From Thiobacillus sp. (GTDB lineage: Bacteria; Pseudomonadota; Gammaproteobacteria; Burkholderiales; Thiobacillaceae), in contig WGNC01000007.1 in NCBI GenBank assembly GCA_016124745.1, forward strand, positions 62,001-126,000: a DNA stretch of 64,000 nt, in the 5' to 3' direction. Under the pieces are notes generated by a model. That model did no database searches. It was not told the DNA's origin and saw only the letters and a list, made by a program, of their open reading frames with translations. Every line of letters starts with the position of its first letter. Within the stretch, counting starts at the first letter, position 1. A program made the position numbers and the translations under genes. Of this stretch, positions 18,942 to 27,034 are shown piece after piece.

Positions 18942-19394
18942 ATGGAACTAATTTTGTGGCGGCACGCCGAGGCTGAAGACGGGACACCCGATCTCGAACG
19001 CAAACTGACCGGCAAGGGCCGCAAGCAGGCGGCGCGAATGGCAGACTGGCTCAACCCGCGCTTGCCGCCGGATATTCGCATTCTGAGCAGCCCGGCGGTC
19101 CGCACGCTGCAGACCGCGCAGGCGCTGGGGCGGGACTATGAGGTGGCACCCGGACTGGCACCCGGGGCAAGCGCCGAAGAGGTGCTGGCCATCGCCGGAT
19201 GGCCAGCCGCGACCTCTCCGATGCTGATCGTCGGACACCAGCCCACGCTGGGGCAAGTGGCGATGCAACTGCTGGCCGGACAGGCCGGCGACCTGACGCT
19301 CAAGAAGGGCGGCTTGTGGTGGTTCCAGGGACGCGAGCGCATGGGCCAATTGCAGGTGGTGTTGCGCGCGGTGGCGGTGCCCGACTGGTTATAA
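18942..19394 (+). CDS. sixA: Phosphohistidine phosphatase SixA
   Basis: A 150-residue histidine-phosphatase-superfamily enzyme that removes phosphate from phosphohistidine of phosphorelay proteins. The catalytic RHG-like motif is WRHAEAEDG at residues 6-14, the second arginine is in LSSPAVRTLQTAQ, and the second histidine in MLIVGHQPTLGQVAMQLL. CGAGGAAA lies just before the ATG. The 220 bases upstream, after the CYTH-CHAD gene, hold nothing I recognise. SixA next to a flagellar-like cluster could modulate a phosphorelay, but this is speculation. Confidence 0.93.
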   Translation: MELILWRHAEAEDGTPDLERKLTGKGRKQAARMADWLNPRLPPDIRILSSPAVRTLQTAQALGRDYEVAPGLAPGASAEEVLAIAGWPAATSPMLIVGHQPTLGQVAMQLLAGQAGDLTLKKGGLWWFQGRERMGQLQVVLRAVAVPDWL

Positions 19395-19460
19395 TCGCCG
19401 GGTGATGATCCAATCGACCAGGCTTGAGGCGATTCCGCCGAACCCGACCATGCCGACGAG

Positions 19461-20834
19461 GTGCGTGCAGTGCCGGGTTGGCTGAGCGGCCTGCGCGAGC
19501 TGATCGCGGAAGCGAGCCCGCTGCGCCGCTTCATGCTTGCCCTGTTGGCGCTGCTGCCGCTGGCTGCGCTGGCCGCCGCCTATATCTGGTTCAACCCGCC
19601 AGTCTATCGCGTGCTGTTCACGCATCTGTCGGACCGCGCGGGCGGTGAGGTCATCGCCGCACTGGAGCAGATCGACATTCCCTACCGCCTGTCTGCCACC
19701 GACGGCACGATCGAAGTCCCGGCCGACCAGCTGCATGCCGCGCGTTATCGCCTGGCAGCGCGGGGACTGCCCAAGTCCGATGACGAGGTCCAGGATGAAG
19801 CCGACCGCAGCCCCGGTTTTGGCGCGTCATCGCTGCAGGAGCAGCAGCGTTTCCAGCGCGCGCTCGAAATTGATCTGGCCCGATCGATCCAGAAACTCGA
19901 CGCGGTCGACCTTGCCCGTGTGCACCTCGCCCTGCCCAAGGTCTCGCCCTTCCTGCGCGATGCGCCGCCTGCGACTGCTGCGGTCCTGGTGCGACTGCAC
20001 GACGGCGCGCAACTTTCGGCAGAGCAGGTTGCGACGATACAGACCTTGGTCGCTGCCAGCGTGCCGCGCCTGAAGCGGGCCGACGTGCAGGTGTTCGTCC
20101 CGAGCGGGGTCTTGCTGGGCGTCGCGCCACCCGAGGTGGCGCAGTCGCAGCGCCTGGCGATTGAACAGGATCTTGCAGAGCGGGCGCTGGCCGTGCTGAC
20201 GCCCTGGCTGGGCAAGGATCGCGTCAGCGTGCAGGTGACGGCGACGCTGGAGGACGGCGAAACCCGGCAGACCGTCGAGCGGGTCAGCAATGTCGTGGGG
20301 GCGGGGCAGACACGCCCGCTGGAGAAAGTGGTGCGCACCACGCGTGTGCCGGAAGGACATGTCCGGCGCGTCCAGGCCGTCGTGATCCTGAACTTCAACG
20401 CCAGCGCCAACGAGCGCTGGCGCGCCGGGCAACTCGCTCGCCAGGCGCTGGGCTTGCAGAAGGAGCGGGGCGACAGTCTGACTGTGTTTGCCCTGCCCAC
20501 CACTTCCCGGGAACAGGAACAGACCGAAGCAGAAACCCCTGCCGTCGGGGCAGAGCCACCGCTTCCCGCATCCGTTTCGATTCCGCGGGTTCAGCCGCAC
20601 GCCCCGCCGCCCCAACAGGTGGAAACCTCAGCCGAATATATGCCATGGGCGATTGCTGCGGGTGCGGCTGTGCTGCTGCTCGGCTGGATCGGGTGGCGGC
20701 GCGCGCATCGGGCCGAACCCGAACCTGAAGAAGTCGTGGAAGGCTTCGATGCCGAGCTCGAGTCGGCACGCCGTCAGGCACTGGCCGATCCGCGCGTGAC
20801 GGCGGACGTCATCAAGCTCTGGATGCGCGCATGA
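19461..20834 (+). CDS. fliF: Flagellar MS-ring protein FliF (short form)
   Basis: A 457-residue protein; typical FliF is about 550. It has two membrane segments (about 24-44 and 394-412). Between them are the ring-building motifs: NPPVYRVLFTHLSDRAGGEV and GLPKSDDEVQDEADRSPGFG (RBM1), RALEIDLARSIQKLDAVDLA with HLALPKVSPFLRD (RBM2), and a shortened RBM3 (RVSVQVTATLEDGETRQTV ... VRRVQAVVILNF) whose beta-collar insertion is small. The C-terminal tail (ELESARRQALADPRVTADV) matches the FliG-binding tail. The start is a GTG; a second GTG three codons on is possible. It overlaps fliG by four bases. The usual upstream partner fliE is absent. Confidence 0.93.
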   Translation: MRAVPGWLSGLRELIAEASPLRRFMLALLALLPLAALAAAYIWFNPPVYRVLFTHLSDRAGGEVIAALEQIDIPYRLSATDGTIEVPADQLHAARYRLAARGLPKSDDEVQDEADRSPGFGASSLQEQQRFQRALEIDLARSIQKLDAVDLARVHLALPKVSPFLRDAPPATAAVLVRLHDGAQLSAEQVATIQTLVAASVPRLKRADVQVFVPSGVLLGVAPPEVAQSQRLAIEQDLAERALAVLTPWLGKDRVSVQVTATLEDGETRQTVERVSNVVGAGQTRPLEKVVRTTRVPEGHVRRVQAVVILNFNASANERWRAGQLARQALGLQKERGDSLTVFALPTTSREQEQTEAETPAVGAEPPLPASVSIPRVQPHAPPPQQVETSAEYMPWAIAAGAAVLLLGWIGWRRAHRAEPEPEEVVEGFDAELESARRQALADPRVTADVIKLWMRA

Positions 20835-21799
20835 GCCAGCCCGGAATCGAAAAATCCGCAGCACTTCTGCTCACGCTGGGCGAGGAGGCGACCGCGGCCG
20901 TGTTCCGTTACCTGAGCCCGCTCGAAGTCAGCCGCCTGGGGGGCGCCATGCGCGAACTGGGGGTGCTGCCGCGCGAGCGCGTGCGCGGGATCCTTCACGA
21001 TTACGTCGCCGAAGCGGCCGAACAGACTGGATTTGCCGCGGATGCCGGGCGCTTCCTCGACGAAACACTGAAGCGGGCACTGAGCCCGGAACGCGCCCAG
21101 GCCGTGCTGCAGCGCCTCGGTGCATCGGCGGCGCAGCTGCCGGAAAAGCTGGCGTGGCGCGAACCCGCCGAGATTGCCGGTCTGCTGGAGGCGCAGCCGC
21201 CGCAACTGATTGCCGCCGTCCTGTCGCAGTTGCCGCGCGACGTTGCCGCTGCGGTGCTCGACGTGCTGCCGGCAACGACGCGTGCGGATACCTTGCAGAG
21301 TCTGGCCCGCAGCGATGCCCCGCACCCGGACATGCTGCGCGACCTGGACGACTGGCTGGCGAGTTTCGAACCCGCTGCCTCGCTGCATGGCGAAGCCGCA
21401 GTCGTCAATATTCTTGGGCAGATGAGCGAGGGAAGCGCTGCGGCCGCGCTGAACCAGCTCGACCACAACGATGCAGAACTGGCTGCCCGCCTGCGCGTGC
21501 GCAGTCTCGTATTCGAGGATCTGGCACGCCTGCCCGAGGCGAGCCGCAAGACCTTTTTGCGCAACGTCGGTGCGCGTATCCTGCTGCATGCGCTGAAGGG
21601 CAGCGATGGACAGGTGCTCGACGCGCTGACAACCGTCATGAGCCCGACCGCGGCGCGGCGCATGCGTGACGATCTCGATACCCTGGGCGCGCTGCCGGTG
21701 GCGATGATCCAGTCCGCGCAGGACGAAGCCGGCGCCACCCTGCGTCGACTGGCGTCGGAGGGCGCGATCCCGTTCCCGGAAGAAGAGGAAACCGCATGA
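20831..21799 (+). CDS. fliG: Flagellar motor switch protein FliG (atypical)
   Basis: A 322-residue protein with all three FliG domains. The N-terminal FliF-binding part is GIEKSAALLLTLGEEATAAV. The middle domain contains AQPPQLIAAVLSQLP at 121-135, where E. coli FliG has the FliM-binding EHPQ motif; here it reads QPPQ. The C-terminal torque domain shows LLHALKGSDG and RRMRDDLDTLG. Lys256, Asp280 and Asp281 match E. coli K264, D288 and D289, but Thr273 and Pro289 stand where R281 and R297 are expected. These are alignments by eye. The gene overlaps fliF and fliH by four bases each. Either torque is made differently or this FliG serves a non-rotating export apparatus. Confidence 0.88.
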   Translation: MSQPGIEKSAALLLTLGEEATAAVFRYLSPLEVSRLGGAMRELGVLPRERVRGILHDYVAEAAEQTGFAADAGRFLDETLKRALSPERAQAVLQRLGASAAQLPEKLAWREPAEIAGLLEAQPPQLIAAVLSQLPRDVAAAVLDVLPATTRADTLQSLARSDAPHPDMLRDLDDWLASFEPAASLHGEAAVVNILGQMSEGSAAAALNQLDHNDAELAARLRVRSLVFEDLARLPEASRKTFLRNVGARILLHALKGSDGQVLDALTTVMSPTAARRMRDDLDTLGALPVAMIQSAQDEAGATLRRLASEGAIPFPEEEETA

Positions 21800-22395
21800 G
21801 CATGCAGGACGACACTACGGCATTCGAACACTGGGAAGTGGTGGAACTGGCGGCCTCGTCAAACGGGCAGACGTTATCCCCTGTCGATATCGAAGCCGAA
21901 CTGGCCGCTTTGCGCGAAGCCGCACATGCCGAAGGTTATGCCGAAGGGCTGACAGCCGGAAGAGTGGAAGGGGAGCAGGCCTGCGGCCGCATGAAGCAGC
22001 TGGCCGACAGCTTTTCATCGACCCTGGACAATCTCGATTTCCGACTCGCCGACATGGTGCTCGAGCTGGCGCTCGATGTGGCGCGCCAGGTGGTGGCCGG
22101 CGAACTGGCGGCACGTCCCGAACGCATTCTCGACGTGGTCAACCTGGCACTGAAACAGATGGCCGAGACCAGCCGCGAGGCGCGTCTGCTGCTGAACCCG
22201 GACGACGCGGCGCTGGTGCGTCCGCATCTCGACCAGGTACTGGACAAGAATCGCCTGCGCATCGTGGAAGACGCGCGCATCGTGCGCGGCGGCTGCCTGA
22301 TCGAAACCACCCAGGGTGACCTCGACGCCACGCTGCCCGCGCGCTGGCGGCAGGTGGTGCAGGTGCTCGGCTCGAACCGGAACTGGATCGACTAA
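21796..22395 (+). CDS. fliH: Flagellar export ATPase regulator FliH
   Basis: A 199-residue protein. FliH is the stator-like partner that holds the FliI ATPase. Residues 30-60 carry the family's alanine/glutamate/glycine-spaced helix (HAEGYAEGLTAGRVEGEQA), and LADMVLELALDVARQVVAGE, RLLLNPDDAALVRPHL and RIVEDARIVRGGCLIETTQG are the C-terminal FliH domain. Start codon overlaps the end of fliG (ATGA). A 232-bp repeat element lies between its stop and fliI. Confidence 0.92.
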   Translation: MSMQDDTTAFEHWEVVELAASSNGQTLSPVDIEAELAALREAAHAEGYAEGLTAGRVEGEQACGRMKQLADSFSSTLDNLDFRLADMVLELALDVARQVVAGELAARPERILDVVNLALKQMAETSREARLLLNPDDAALVRPHLDQVLDKNRLRIVEDARIVRGGCLIETTQGDLDATLPARWRQVVQVLGSNRNWID

Positions 22396-22396
22396 T

Positions 22397-22628
22397 CCTT
22401 GGAACCCCGGTCGACCGCTCCCGCCATGCAATCGTTATCATCATTTTTACGTAATTACAGCCGGGACATTTCATTGCAAGCAAAAATCGCTACGCATCCG
22501 ATTGCACGACTGTCGAGCCATCTGGCTGCGTTGCGCCTCGTTGCATGGAATGGCCATGCTGCCTCGTTGCGCCTTGCCAGCCGACTCGGCAGTCGCGCAC
22601 TCGAACGCGTCCAACCGAGGTTTCAAGG
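22397..22628. repeat. Dispersed element with terminal inverted repeats, copy 1 (inside the fli cluster)
   Basis: The ends are imperfect inverted repeats: CCTTGGAACCCCGGTCGACC at the left and, read on the other strand, CCTTGAAACCTCGGTTGGAC at the right (about 17 of 22 bases match). The interior contains CGCTACGCATCCG (from about 22488) and two copies of GCCTCGTTGC. The same motifs occur at the same distances from the right end in copy 2 (31682-31919). It carries no supportable gene. Its right end supplies the AAGGAT that precedes the fliI GTG start. See the findings for arm-to-arm covariation. Confidence 0.88.
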
Positions 22629-22632
22629 ATAA

Positions 22633-24027
22633 GTGGACCGCACCGTCCGCCTGCGTGAATACCTGGCCGACTGCCGACGCGCGGTCAGCTGGGCAGCGCC
22701 AATCGCGGCCAGCGGACGGCTCACCCGGGTATCCGGCCTGGTCATGGAAGCGGTGGGGCTGCGCCTGCCGGTGGGTAGCCAGTGCCATGTTCAGGTGCCG
22801 GGCGGGCAGAGCATCGAGGCCGAGGTGGCCGGGTTCTCCGGCGACCGCCTGTTCATCATGCCTGCCACCGACATTTACGGCGTGATGCCGGGCGCCAGGG
22901 TGGTGCCCGACAACCCGATGGCTGCGCAGCCGCCGCGCCTCGGAATGCGCTACGTGCCGCGCCGTCGCGCGCAGGACCGGGTGCGCCAGGTGCCGGTGGG
23001 CGAGCGCCTGCTGGGGCGCGTGCTCGACGGCGCTGGCAGGCCGCTCGACGGCATGGGCGCGCTGTCGCTGGAACGCCGGGTGCCGCTCTACAGTCGTCCG
23101 ATCAATCCGCTGGAACGCGAGCCGATCCGGCAGACGCTGGACGTGGGGGTGCGCGCGATCAACGGCCTGTTGACCGTGGGGCGTGGGCAGCGGCTCGGCC
23201 TGTTCGCCGGCAGCGGCGTCGGCAAGAGCATCCTGCTCGGCATGATGGCGCGTTTCACCGAAGCGGATGTGGTGGTGGTGGGGCTGATCGGCGAACGCGG
23301 CCGCGAGGTCAAGGAATTCATCGACCGCATCCTGGGTGCCGAAGGCATGGCGCGCGCCGTGGTGGTGGCCGCGCCGGCCGACCATCCGCCGCTGATGCGG
23401 CTTAACGGCGCGGCGTACGCGATGTCGATCGCCGAATATTTCCGCGACCAGGGCAAGCATGTGTTGCTCATCATGGATTCGCTGACCCGCTATGCGATGG
23501 CGCAGCGCGAAGTGGCGCTGGCGATCGGCGAGCCGCCCGCCACCAAGGGCTATCCGCCCTCCGTCTTTGCCAAGCTGCCGCAACTGGCGGAGCGCGCCGG
23601 CAATGGCCGTAGCGGCAGCGGGTCAATCACCGCGTTCTTCACCGTGCTGATGGAGGGCGACGACCAGCAGGACCCGATCGCCGATGCGGCACGTGCAATT
23701 CTCGACGGCCACATCGTGCTCTCCCGCGATCTTGCCGATGCCGGGCATTATCCAGCCATCGACATCGAGGCCTCGATCAGCCGTGCCCAGCCCGACCTGT
23801 TGAGCGAGGATGAACTGGAGCGGACGCGTCGCTTCAAATATCTCTATTCGCGCTACATGCGCAGCCGCGACCTGCTCGCCGTCGGCGCCTATGTGCCGGG
23901 GGCCGATCTGGTGCTGGACGAGGGCGTGCGGCTTTATCCACGCATGCAGGGGTATCTGATGCAGGGAATGGCAGAGCGCGCACCGCTGGAATCCGCACGC
24001 AGCGGACTCGATGAGGTGCTCGGATGA
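22633..24027 (+). CDS. fliI: Flagellum-specific export ATPase FliI
   Basis: This 464-residue F1-beta-like ATPase energises the type III export gate. Walker A is AGSGVGKS (192-199), Walker B is [19 protein letters not shown], and [20 protein letters not shown] plus [16 protein letters not shown] are family signatures of FliI/SctN. The start is a GTG with AAGGA five bases before it, inside the terminal repeat of the preceding element. It overlaps fliJ by four bases. All catalytic motifs are intact, so the export function should be retained. Confidence 0.95.
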
Positions 24028-24476
24028 AGCCCTTCACCCTGGCGCGGGTGCTGCAACTGGCCGAGCGGCGCAGCGAAACCCTGGCGCGTGGCGTCAAGCA
24101 TGCGCATGGCATCTGGTTGCGCGCACGCGGGCGACAGGTCCAGTTGACTGCCTTGCGCGATGCACATATCGCGCGGCTGGCGGACGAATTGCGCAGCGGC
24201 GTATCCGCCGAGCAACTGCTGGAGAAAAATCGTTTGCAGCGCGCACAGGCGGCCGAGTTGCAGGCGGCGCAGACCGCCATCGAAGATGCCTACCGAGACT
24301 GGCAGGCGCGCCTTGCCGAATGGATGCGCGAGGAGCATCGGGTGAAGGCGCTGCGTCTGCTGGAGCAGCGCCATCTGGCGCAGGTCGCCATCCAGCAGCG
24401 ACGTCTGGAGCAACGCCAGCACGACGAACTGGCGGAACTGGCATTTCACCGCGGTACGGGTCATCGGGCTCGTTGA
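24024..24476 (+). CDS. fliJ: Flagellar export chaperone FliJ
   Basis: A 150-residue, almost wholly helical, Arg/Gln/Ala-rich coiled-coil protein. FliJ binds the FliI hexamer like the gamma stalk of F1 ATPase. [20 protein letters not shown] at the N-terminus and a long coiled coil to about residue 140 fit the family, which is weakly conserved in sequence. The assignment rests on position after fliI, size and heptad-like helices. The next gene starts nine bases after its stop. Confidence 0.82.
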
Positions 24477-24485
24477 GGACTTGCC

Positions 24486-24950
24486 ATGAAGCTGCTTGAA
24501 CTCACGCCTGCAGAAATCGCCTTCCTGTCGTGGCCACCGTCCGTGCCCGCTGACTTGCCCGCCCGGCTGACCCGGCGTCTCGGCGCCATGCTGACCGCAC
24601 GCCTGCACCGGCCGGTGCAGGTGCAGGTGCAATCCGGGCTTGCATTGGCGGATTCATTGCTAAAGCCGTGTTGGCAGCCCGATCCTGCGCTCGCCACCTT
24701 GTGGCTGACGCGCCGCCTCGGCGGGAAGCGTGTGGCGGGGGTCGCATCCTTCGTACCCTGTTCGCTGATCCAGAACCTGGATGGACTGTTGGCGGAATGC
24801 TGGCTGGATGCGGCGTCACCGGCCACGTTTCCGCTGGCTCTGGCATGGTGCATCGAGGCCGATCCCACGCAGGCAATGCTCTCCGTGCAGTTGCCGCGCA
24901 ATTCGAACGACATGACGCGCTGGGCGCGAGAGGTCATCCGGCATGGCTAG
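24486..24950 (+). CDS. Orphan protein between fliJ and fliO, no family recognised
   Basis: A 154-residue protein (start MKLLELTPAEIAFLSWPP) in the place where fliK, fliL, fliM and fliN normally lie. It has an N-terminal helical part, VQVQVQSGLALADSLLKP, ATLWLTRRLGGKRVAGVASF and a C-terminal strand-rich part (AMLSVQLPRNSNDMTRW). I see no SpoA (FliN/FliM C-terminal) signature and no FliK hook-length domain. It has no membrane helix or signal peptide. It is translationally coupled to fliO (eight-base overlap), so it is an integral part of the operon. A cytosolic export-gate partner or a switch substitute is possible but unproven. Confidence 0.85.
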   Translation: MKLLELTPAEIAFLSWPPSVPADLPARLTRRLGAMLTARLHRPVQVQVQSGLALADSLLKPCWQPDPALATLWLTRRLGGKRVAGVASFVPCSLIQNLDGLLAECWLDAASPATFPLALAWCIEADPTQAMLSVQLPRNSNDMTRWAREVIRHG

Positions 24951-25284
24951 ATTGATTGCGACAGCGGGGTTGCTGCTGCTCCCGTCCTGGGCGTTTGCCG
25001 CACCCGACACGACAAGCAGCCTGCTTACGGTGTTGCTGAGTTTGGCGCTGATCCTGGGCGGATTCGTCGCCGTGGCCTGGTTCGCTCGTCGCTACCTTCC
25101 GGGCATGGGCACGCAGGGGGCGGTCAAGGTGGTGGGGGCGACTGCGGTGGGAACACGCGAGCGCGTGGTGGTGGTCGAGGTCGACGGCACCTGGTTGTTG
25201 CTGGGAGTGGGCGGCGGCAATGTGCGGCTGCTGCATAGCTTGCCGAAGCCGGCCGAAGCCCGGGAACGGGAGCAGGGGCAATGA
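24943..25284 (+). CDS. fliO: Flagellar biosynthesis protein FliO
   Basis: A 113-residue membrane protein that helps assemble the FliP ring. A signal-peptide-like start (LIATAGLLLLPSWAFAAP), a single membrane helix (LLTVLLSLALILGGFVAVAW), FARRYLPG and a cytosolic beta domain (VKVVGATAVGTRERVVVVEV) match FliO. It overlaps the preceding orphan gene and, by four bases, fliP. Confidence 0.88.
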   Translation: MARLIATAGLLLLPSWAFAAPDTTSSLLTVLLSLALILGGFVAVAWFARRYLPGMGTQGAVKVVGATAVGTRERVVVVEVDGTWLLLGVGGGNVRLLHSLPKPAEAREREQGQ

Positions 25285-26012
25285 GGCGGCTTCTAGCGTG
25301 TGGCGCGCTGATGGCTTTTTCGGTCGTTGCCTTGGGCGCCGACAGCAACGTGCCGTTGCTGAGCGTGACGCCCGGTGCGGGCGGGCAGGTGATCGGGGTG
25401 CCGGGCGCGAGCCTGCCCTGGCTACTGCTGTTTCCTTTCCTGCCTGCCCTGCTGCTGGCGTTCACCGCCTTCACGCGCATTGCCGTGGTGCTGTTCCTGC
25501 TGCGGCAGGGGCTGGGCAGTCCGACCGCGCCGCCAAACCTGGTGTTGATGGGACTGGCGGTGTTGCTGACCCTATTCGTGATGTCGCCCGCGTTGAAGAC
25601 CATCGACGCCGAAGCCTATGAGCCTTTTCTTGCCGGAACGCTGAGCGTCAATGCCGCGGCCGAGAAAGCCGCCACGCCGCTCAAAGCCTTCATGCTGCGG
25701 CAAACCCGGGCCGAGGACCTGGGCCTGTTTGCAGCCGATGACAAGGCCATCGACCCCAAACAGATCGACAGCGTGCCGCTGGCCACGCTGGCGCCGGCGT
25801 TTCTCACGAGCGAACTCAAGACCGCGTTCCAGATCGGCTTCATGGTCATATTGCCTTTCCTGGTCATCGACCTGGTGGTCTCTGCCGTGTTGACCGCACT
25901 GGGCATGATCATGCTGCCGCCGCAACTGGTGTCGCTGCCGCTCAAACTGTTGCTGTTCGTCACGGTGGACGGCTGGCACCTGCTGGTCGGCTCCTTGATC
26001 GGCAGTTTCTGA
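25281..26012 (+). CDS. fliP: Flagellar export gate protein FliP
   Basis: A 243-residue integral membrane protein forming the core of the export gate. It has a cleavable signal peptide (LLACGALMAFSVVALGA), the conserved AFTRIAVVLFLLRQGLGSPT and PPNLVLMGLAVLLTLFVMSP, and the C-terminal FQIGFMVILPFLVIDLVVSA and LGMIMLPPQLVSLPLKLLLF helices. All are diagnostic of FliP/SctR. It starts inside the fliO stop (four-base overlap). fliQ follows after 19 bases. Confidence 0.96.
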   Translation: MRRLLACGALMAFSVVALGADSNVPLLSVTPGAGGQVIGVPGASLPWLLLFPFLPALLLAFTAFTRIAVVLFLLRQGLGSPTAPPNLVLMGLAVLLTLFVMSPALKTIDAEAYEPFLAGTLSVNAAAEKAATPLKAFMLRQTRAEDLGLFAADDKAIDPKQIDSVPLATLAPAFLTSELKTAFQIGFMVILPFLVIDLVVSAVLTALGMIMLPPQLVSLPLKLLLFVTVDGWHLLVGSLIGSF

Positions 26013-26031
26013 TGGAAGCCGGAATACTTTA

Positions 26032-26286
26032 ATGGAGGGCTTGGCGCGCGACGCACTCTGGCTGGTAGTGACGCTGGCCGCACCAATATTGCTGGCGGGC
26101 TTGCTGACCGCCTTCGCCATCAGCCTGTTCCAGGCCGCCACGCAAATCCTCGAGCCGACGCTGTCTTTCGTCCCCAAGCTCATCGTCATGCTGCTCGTGC
26201 TGGCGTTGCTGGGCGGCTGGATGGGCGGGCAACTGGTCGACTTCGCGCGCACGCTGCTGAGCGATTTCCCGGGTCTCCTGGAATGA
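26032..26286 (+). CDS. fliQ: Flagellar export gate protein FliQ
   Basis: An 84-residue protein with two membrane helices, ALWLVVTLAAPILLAGLLTA and KLIVMLLVLALLGGWMGGQL, joined by FQAATQILEPTLSFVPK, the FliQ/SctS signature loop. Part of the FliPQR export gate. Length and position between fliP and fliR fit exactly. Confidence 0.95.
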   Translation: MEGLARDALWLVVTLAAPILLAGLLTAFAISLFQAATQILEPTLSFVPKLIVMLLVLALLGGWMGGQLVDFARTLLSDFPGLLE

Positions 26287-26293
26287 GCGAGCC

Positions 26294-27034
26294 ATGCCTG
26301 TGAGCGAAGCGAATATGGCCGCGTGGCTGTTCGCGTTCGCCCGCCTTGCGGGATGGTCCCTGTTCGATCCGCTGGCCGGACGGTTGCCCATAGCGATGCG
26401 CCTCCTCATTGCTGCCGTTCTGGCCGTCGTGCTGGCACCGGGTTTGTCGATCGCGGCCGTCGATCCTTTCACGCTGCAGGGCATGCTGGCGATGAGCATG
26501 GAAGCCGCCTGGGGCGCGGCGCTGGCGCTTTGCGTGTGGCTGGTCTTTGGCATGGTTTCGGCCGTGCTTGTGTGGACCGGCCACACGGCCACTGGCGGCC
26601 TGCTGGCGCTGACCGAGGAACAGGCCGCGTCGGCCGACAGCCCCTGGCAGGCCCTGGCATGGTGGCTTGCAGCGCTCGCTTTTCTGGGCGCCAACGGTCA
26701 CCTGCTGATCGTCGATGCGTTGCGTCATGGCTTCGCCGTCATGCCGGTGGCCGTTCTGCCCGCGGCCGGCGACCTGCGCCAACTGGCCGAGGGCGCCGGC
26801 TGGCTGTTCGCCACCGGTCTGCAACTGGCCTTGCCCCTGCTGGCGCTGGCCTTGCTGATCCAACTGGCATTCGGCATCGTTGCACGCACCACGCCTGGGC
26901 TCGACATGTCTTCGGCGGGGCTGGGGATTGCCGCCCTGGGACTGACGGCCGCGTGGGTGTGGGCAGTGCCGCTGGTGACGCGCGGCATCGCCCTGGGACT
27001 CGAACAACTGGCGGTATGGATGGACAGGCTCTGA
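26294..27034 (+). CDS. fliR: Flagellar export gate protein FliR
   Basis: A 246-residue protein with about six membrane helices. FARLAGWSLFDPLAGRLPIA, the helix pair around VFGMVSAVLVWTGHTATGGL, and IQLAFGIVARTTPGLDMSS (the FliR/SctT signature region, usually FG(V/I)xxR..PQ(M/L)N) are visible. The last gene of the cluster; flhA and flhB are not next to it. It begins seven bases after fliQ and is followed by a 100-base gap to dapA. Confidence 0.92.
   Translation: MPVSEANMAAWLFAFARLAGWSLFDPLAGRLPIAMRLLIAAVLAVVLAPGLSIAAVDPFTLQGMLAMSMEAAWGAALALCVWLVFGMVSAVLVWTGHTATGGLLALTEEQAASADSPWQALAWWLAALAFLGANGHLLIVDALRHGFAVMPVAVLPAAGDLRQLAEGAGWLFATGLQLALPLLALALLIQLAFGIVARTTPGLDMSSAGLGIAALGLTAAWVWAVPLVTRGIALGLEQLAVWMDRL

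Follow-up and report, generated by a model that had tools for sequence, protein, structure and literature searches.

Here we describe a gene cluster at positions 19461-27034 on the + strand of a 64,000-nucleotide stretch of Thiobacillus sp. DNA (the window; contig WGNC01000007.1), where ten genes form a single run, fliF-G-H-I-J-orphan-O-P-Q-R. Together with a second locus, flhB-flhA-flhF-flhG-fliA, this cluster almost certainly makes up a reduced flagellum-type export system that is separate from the flagellum, and it is very probable that the system is functional and not decaying. Our preferred reading of its role, to which we give a probability of roughly 0.55, is that of an inner-membrane type III exporter that does not rotate and moves non-flagellar substrates. 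Its parts, as read from the sequence, are FliF, FliG, FliH, FliI, FliJ, a protein like the FliM middle domain, FliO, FliP, FliQ, FliR, a shortened FlhB, FlhA, FlhF, FlhG and a FliA-type sigma factor. The rotating parts and the searched parts outside the inner membrane are gone; the ring, the gate and the ATPase are kept and selected.

Composition of the system and its separation from the flagellum

The genome of the window (G000; 3.35 Mb in 48 contigs, 97.8% complete) has one FlhA match and one FlhB match, which adjoin on contig C38 and are followed by flhF, an FlhG-like gene and the gene for a FliA-type sigma factor. Neither flhA nor flhB lies in the window, as a first-pass annotation had pointed out together with the gene order of the cluster. 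That annotation had also reported that fliE, fliK, fliL, fliM and fliN were lacking. This holds for the cluster, with the qualification that only a full-length fliM is absent: the orphan resembles the FliM middle domain, so FliM is not wholly missing. Genome-wide, no match was obtained in G000 with models for the FliM/N C-domain, FliE, rod/hook proteins, flagellin or MotA, each of which was matched in its four flagellated control genomes; FliK, FliL, FlgH, FlgI and secretins were not searched for. The absence of the FliM/N C-domain from the genome points to a non-rotating device, as had been anticipated for this outcome.

Three further Thiobacillus genomes (G015, G035 and G053) agree with G000 in having the reduced system only. 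The FliM/N C-domain (PF01052) had no match in 13 of the 54 genomes of the genus, these four included, and exactly 2 matches, never more, in the other 41; in the closed genome G011 both belong to the conventional cluster, as its FliM and FliN. Rod/hook proteins (PF00460) and flagellin (PF00669) were matched in none of G000, G015, G035, G053, G039, G041, G003 and G060. PF00460 had 6 matches in each of G011, G024, G048, G016 and G051, and PF00669 had 2 per genome in these five, which have both systems. For MotA (PF20560) and FliE (PF02049) there were no matches in G000, G015, G035, G053, G041 or G060; the remaining eight of the 14 genomes had 2 MotA matches and 1 FliE match each. We rejected contamination or assembly gaps as the source of these absences, given the completeness of G000 and the concurrence of G015, G035 and G053 (97, 99 and 91% complete). 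Mixed sets in G003 (8% contaminated) and in several 75-85% complete genomes were left out of the argument.

The reduced system, in two loci, occurs all over the sulfur-oxidising genus Thiobacillus and also in two related genera, represented by three genomes. A FliF search in 90 relatives found a short FliF (∼115-182 bits) in 50 of the 54 genus genomes, split over two open reading frames (ORFs) or contigs in two of the 50, and beside it in most genus genomes a conventional FliF (∼245 bits). Among the 27 good genomes of the genus (≥90% complete and ≤5% contaminated), 26 have the reduced FliF and 23 the flagellar one; those without the latter are G000, G015, G035 and G053. In an FlhA search in 120 relatives, among the matches listed, most genus members have two (∼900 and ∼830 bits) and G000 has only the latter. 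G026, the one of the 27 without a short FliF, has the matching FlhA. In G011 and G024, two genomes assembled as one contig each, the reduced set is accompanied by two conventional loci, a complete fliE-R cluster and flhB-A-F-G-fliA. The FliA of the latter locus in dual genomes is 55-56% identical to that of the reduced system. A complete conventional set elsewhere had been proposed at first pass as the mark of a separate machine, and it was found in these congeners; the opposite arrangement, with fliM, fliN and fliE elsewhere and no second fliF or fliG, was not found. The suggestion of either an export machine without motility or a minimal second flagellum is thus supported by the lack of motor and distal genes in G000 and by the separate conventional set in congeners, the function itself being inferred.

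In 19 stretches from 11 genomes, as far as these reach, the reduced set was always split into sixA-fliF...fliR-dapA-bamC and flhB-flhA-flhF-flhG-fliA-maeB, except that maeB was not seen in the two sister-genus stretches. Both loci are present in the sister genus (G060 and G070) and in a third genus (G066), and the genes that flank the fli cluster are the same there. A scan of GTDB genomes yielded 48 loci, among them that of T. thioparus DSM 505; 29 are titled Thiobacillus and the others Hydrogenophilales, Thiobacillaceae or loosely named metagenome-assembled genomes. Gene order and strand are the same in 45/45 loci where all ten genes were found (38 distinct in sequence, as some contigs were counted twice). 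An apparent loss of the orphan in L095 was an artefact of a run of N that joins it to fliJ. Genes between fliR and dapA in L042, L043 and L057 were rejected as parts of the system; they are the unrelated zwf (glucose-6-phosphate dehydrogenase). The orphan was not found in viral contigs, and FliG had only matches of <60% identity on plasmids. Some loci of the related genera carry additional genes. Flavoprotein and cytochrome c genes, by eye like flavocytochrome c sulfide dehydrogenase, stand between fliQ and fliR in G060 (L143:5299-6978), and a divergent CheY-like receiver gene, not seen in Thiobacillus, lies just upstream of fliF or fliF-fliG in G070 (L144:4373-4867) and G066 (L178:8188-8619).

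In a tree of 49 FlhA sequences, the flagellar FlhA of Burkholderiales include the 11 from the reduced system as one clade (100/100), which is apart from the sequences that we labelled lateral and SctV-like; long branches make the nearest neighbour of this clade uncertain. The SctV-type model TIGR01399 matched the reduced FlhA with 597 bits, below its cut-off of 692. Flagellar NCBIfam cut-offs were passed by FliF, FliI, FliO, FliP, FliQ, FlhA and FlhF. FliG, FliH, FliJ and FliR fell below the NCBIfam cut-offs and above those of Pfam, and FlhB did not pass the NCBIfam flagellar cut-off, or passed only in Pfam.

Altered and retained features of the proteins

FlhB is 249-301 amino acids (aa) long and in 12/12 cases ends before the NPTH autocleavage domain, its Pfam match stopping at 239-248 of 335 positions. 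No separate paralogue of the C-domain was found in G000, G015, G035, G053, G041 or G060, and G039 had no FlhB match whatever; dual genomes have a full FlhB plus a small paralogue as well. In G000 the tail of FlhB (L001:1330-1420) reads PLPNPLPLAGEGANA, like a translated interspersed repeat, and two or three such units are present in L041. In FlhA, the four charged residues Arg-94, Lys-203, Asp-208 and Asp-249, critical for proton-coupled export in Salmonella (PMC9114704), are kept in 11/11 sequences of the reduced system. By contrast, Phe-459 and Thr-490, two of the three named residues of the dimple that binds chaperone-substrate complexes (PMC8166844), are kept in 0/11, and Pro-442 at the rim of the chaperone pocket is lost as well. 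The 32 conventional sequences have Phe/Tyr-459 in 32 and Thr-490 in 31 cases. Of 283 FlhA columns that are ≥90% conserved in conventional sequences, 198 are unchanged in all 11 reduced ones and 23, including 442 and 490, are changed in all 11.

Two blocks are missing from FliF, which correspond to residues 286-327 and 337-357 in its conventional counterpart; in Salmonella the FliF collar spans residues 271-381 (PMC8270960). Two variants of the gene stand out. In closed G011 (L045:3681-4969) fliF is split in its proline-rich linker across two overlapping ORFs in different frames, by a frameshift, a sequencing error or recoding. In G066 (L178:8674-10839) FliF and FliG are fused in one open frame of 721 aa, a natural counterpart of laboratory FliF-FliG fusions. 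None of the 55 Thiobacillus FliG sequences (48 distinct) has the torque residues Arg-281 or Arg-297, and none has Glu-125 or His-126 of the EHPQ motif; Lys-264 is kept in all and Asp-289 in 50. Loss of EHPQ was rejected as a mark of FliM loss and does not define the system, because G060 and G070 keep the motif. FlhG has lost its Walker A (ATP-binding) motif in 9/9 sequences, and the P-loop of FlhF is kept in 10/10. FliI has GERGRE and LLIMDS in the 9/9 sequences listed, and FliH has an N-terminal AF[ED]xWE motif in 56/56; the corresponding region of Salmonella FliH binds FliN and FlhA (PMC9114704).

The orphan looks like a FliM reduced to its FliG-binding middle domain, and it stands at the operon position of fliM. 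An AlphaFold model built from 39 orthologues had a mean predicted local distance difference test score (pLDDT) of 82.5 and a predicted template modelling score (pTM) of 0.74. A Foldseek search of the PDB returned FliM middle domains at ranks 1-13, followed by CheX, FliY and CheC, with a best E of 1.4e-3 and no match at or under 0.001. VIA-align superposed the model on FliM of 4fhr with Z 9.9 (118 residues aligned, root-mean-square deviation 3.6); Z was at least 8.2 for 15 FliM structures, 7.5 for the next best (FliY/CheC/CheX) and at most 2.9 for unrelated folds. The assignment to the FliM fold is based on a single AlphaFold model and the structural matches to it. FliM identity by sequence was unsupported in Pfam, in NCBIfam, by hhalign against 18 FliM (Prob 0.1) and in a profile search of PDB sequences, and the orphan has no SpoA C-domain and no Pfam match.

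The ratio of nonsynonymous to synonymous substitution rates (dN/dS) in five close pairs was 0.017-0.079 for fliI, 0.062-0.090 for fliP, 0.045-0.164 for fliG, 0.216-0.243 for fliF and 0.150-0.373 for fliO, compared with 0.014-0.116 for the neighbours dapA and bamC. These values are well below 1, which argues against decay. Both operons seem to be driven by housekeeping-type (σ70) promoters, and the system would therefore lie outside the flagellar gene hierarchy. A TATAAT box is found 5' of fliF in 52/56 loci (0.34 expected from shuffles), in 50 of the 52 at 61-86 bp, although it overlaps the sixA stop codon, so that coding constraint is a possible confounder. TGCTA(A/G)ACT lies 30-32 bp 5' of flhB in 12/12, and there was no σ28 or σ54 box upstream of the reduced-system flhB, fliF or sixA. 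The pattern TAAAN{14,16}GCCGATA was tried as the signature of a FliA regulon and rejected, having 1 match in G000 and 3 in the reversed control.

The coordinates of the cluster are given in Table 1. Its neighbours are housekeeping genes, as annotated at first pass: sixA upstream (TIGR00249, 68.0 bits, slightly below the cut-off of 74.5) and dapA downstream (TIGR00674, 370.6 bits, above the cut-off), followed by a BamC-like gene (54 bits, far below the cut-off). Between fliH and fliI there are 237 bp (22396-22632). This spacer measures 233 bp in L045 and L055, and the two genes overlap or nearly adjoin elsewhere, e.g. in L050.

Table 1. Features of the fli cluster in the window
Feature	Position	Strand	Length (aa)	Remarks
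TATAAT box	19390..19395	+		71 bp 5' of fliF; overlaps the sixA stop codon; putative promoter element
fliF	19461..20834	+	457	short MS-ring protein, most of the beta-collar gone; PF01514 and TIGR00206 over cut-off
fliG	20831..21799	+	322	N, M and C domains all there (PF14842, PF14841, PF01706); FliM-contact and two torque residues changed
fliH	21796..22395	+	199	PF02108; conserved N-terminal AFEHWE motif
fliI	22633..24027	+	464	export ATPase; TIGR03496 over cut-off
fliJ	24024..24476	+	150	PF02050 over cut-off
orphan	24486..24950	+	154	predicted FliM middle domain alone, without CheY-binding N-terminus or SpoA domain
fliO	24943..25284	+	113	PF04347 and TIGR03500 over cut-off
fliP	25281..26012	+	243	TIGR01103 over cut-off
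fliQ	26032..26286	+	84	TIGR01402 over cut-off
fliR	26294..27034	+	246	PF01311 over cut-off

Export and its alternatives

What might such a machine do? We propose that FliF would form a ring without the usual collar, and that FliG and the FliM-like domain would form a thin ring beneath it. The FliHIJ ATPase may dock through FliH either to FlhA or to the thin FliG/FliM-like ring, the FliPQR/FlhB/FlhA gate would take proteins across the inner membrane, driven by the proton gradient, and FlhF would position the machine. The cargo would be one class of non-flagellar protein, reaching at least the periplasm; a single class is expected since neither the FlhB switch domain nor the usual pocket of FlhA for chaperones has been retained. 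Export of non-flagellar cargo is the reading that makes the best use of the conserved parts.

Several observations weigh against export. Loss of the FlhB C-domain is expected to stop export of the flagellar type. Without SpoA domains (the C-domains of FliM and FliN) the usual dock of FliH is missing. No gene of unknown function stands consistently beside either reduced locus, and hence no substrate was found; nor was a FliA-type consensus enriched over the reversed control in five genomes, other FliA specificities being possible. The orphan and FlhG evolve fast (median identity 57.8 and 52.7%, respectively), and the dN/dS of the orphan (0.184-0.601) is the highest of the genes.

The main rival is a membrane scaffold or pole organiser, in which FlhF would place a FliF-FliG-FlhA assembly that serves as landmark or signals to the system's own FliA. 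It ranks first among the rivals since the two classical docking sites for substrates are altered and no cargo was found. The intact P-loop of FlhF fits such a role, and the retained parts, the FliF/FliG ring and the gate, match those put together at the first checkpoint in the assembly of polar flagella. The energy-using parts, however, would be superfluous in a scaffold, and it is these (fliI, fliP and the FlhA ion-pathway charges) that are conserved best, so that we consider a scaffold unlikely, at about one chance in five. About half as probable as a scaffold is help to type IV pili, on the model of Lysobacter enzymogenes, which has no flagella but keeps export genes of flagellar type; those genes form no operon in the described strain (PMC7277350), whereas the Thiobacillus genes do.

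That the loci are the decaying remnant of a lost second flagellum is very improbable. Such decay could be read from the frame change that splits fliF in closed G011, from the lost Walker A motif of FlhG and from the missing FliG arginines, but dN/dS lies far below 1, gene order is constant in every complete locus, and the system is retained in species that have lost the conventional flagellum and survives in three genera. Still less probable is support for the building of the conventional flagellum, or a sharing of subunits with it. Both systems do coexist in most Thiobacillus, but the reduced one is alone in G000, G015, G035, G053 and, as far as tested, G060, which contradicts such a role unless the assemblies miss the whole conventional set. 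We put no more weight on a likeness to CORE, which has been claimed to form the gate of membrane nanotubes in Bacillus subtilis: CORE is not known to need FliF, FliG or the ATPase, and all three are conserved here. The gate components FliPQR, FlhB and FlhA are nevertheless all present, and the role in nanotubes is referred to in the literature (PMC9380563, PMC7277350).

Relation to known flagellum-derived machines

Compared with the flagellar type III secretion system (T3SS) and its MS (membrane-supramembrane) ring, the Thiobacillus system has the same genes in the same order, and many of its parts exceed flagellar NCBIfam cut-offs. It differs in that the reduced set comes without rod, hook, flagellin, FliE, MotA and SpoA in G000, its FlhB and FliF are short, the FlhA pocket is changed and FliM is down to one domain. 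Reduced flagellar sets without a filament are also known as the hook-basal bodies of Buchnera and the flagellar homologues of Chlamydia. Buchnera reportedly keeps hook-basal-body proteins, unlike G000, where the rod/hook models had no match. The non-flagellar T3SS of the Myxococcales type is likewise derived from the flagellum; it has neither a needle nor a channel in the outer membrane, and its conservation was used to argue that it works and transports proteins (Abby and Rocha 2012, PMC3459982). Unlike that system, the Thiobacillus one has an FlhA that falls outside the SctV-like and inside the flagellar sequences, and it retains FliG, FliO, FlhF and FliA; on these grounds we regard it as a separate derivation from the flagellum.

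Lysobacter enzymogenes OH11 likewise retains flagellar export genes without having flagella, and these were shown to export heterologous flagellin and to affect twitching (PMC7277350). Besides their lack of an operon, they differ from the Thiobacillus system in that the latter is distinct from a usually coexisting flagellum. A hat-shaped complex related to the flagellar T3SS is, like the proposed machine, an inner-membrane structure tied to FlhA, but the hat genes are unknown, the hat persists without FliF, and no Thiobacillus is included in Table 1 of its description (PMC9380563). Our literature search, which left most subscription journals outside, found no description of this reduced Thiobacillus system.

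On balance, we lean towards a third kind of machine of flagellar descent, next to the flagellum itself and the injectisome: a proton-driven, inner-membrane device without rod, switch, motor or either classical substrate-docking site, with its own FlhF and FliA, and with a job that is kept more faithfully than swimming. This half motor would be a separate, selected machine that shares the cell with a complete flagellum in species that swim and can be cultivated. One of them is T. thioparus DSM 505, which is motile by a single polar flagellum (PMC5248467), and because the two systems coexist there, they could be knocked out separately. It would also show a second route from the flagellum to a device for secretion, one family displaying the loss of the collar, of the FlhB switch, of the FlhA pocket and of SpoA.

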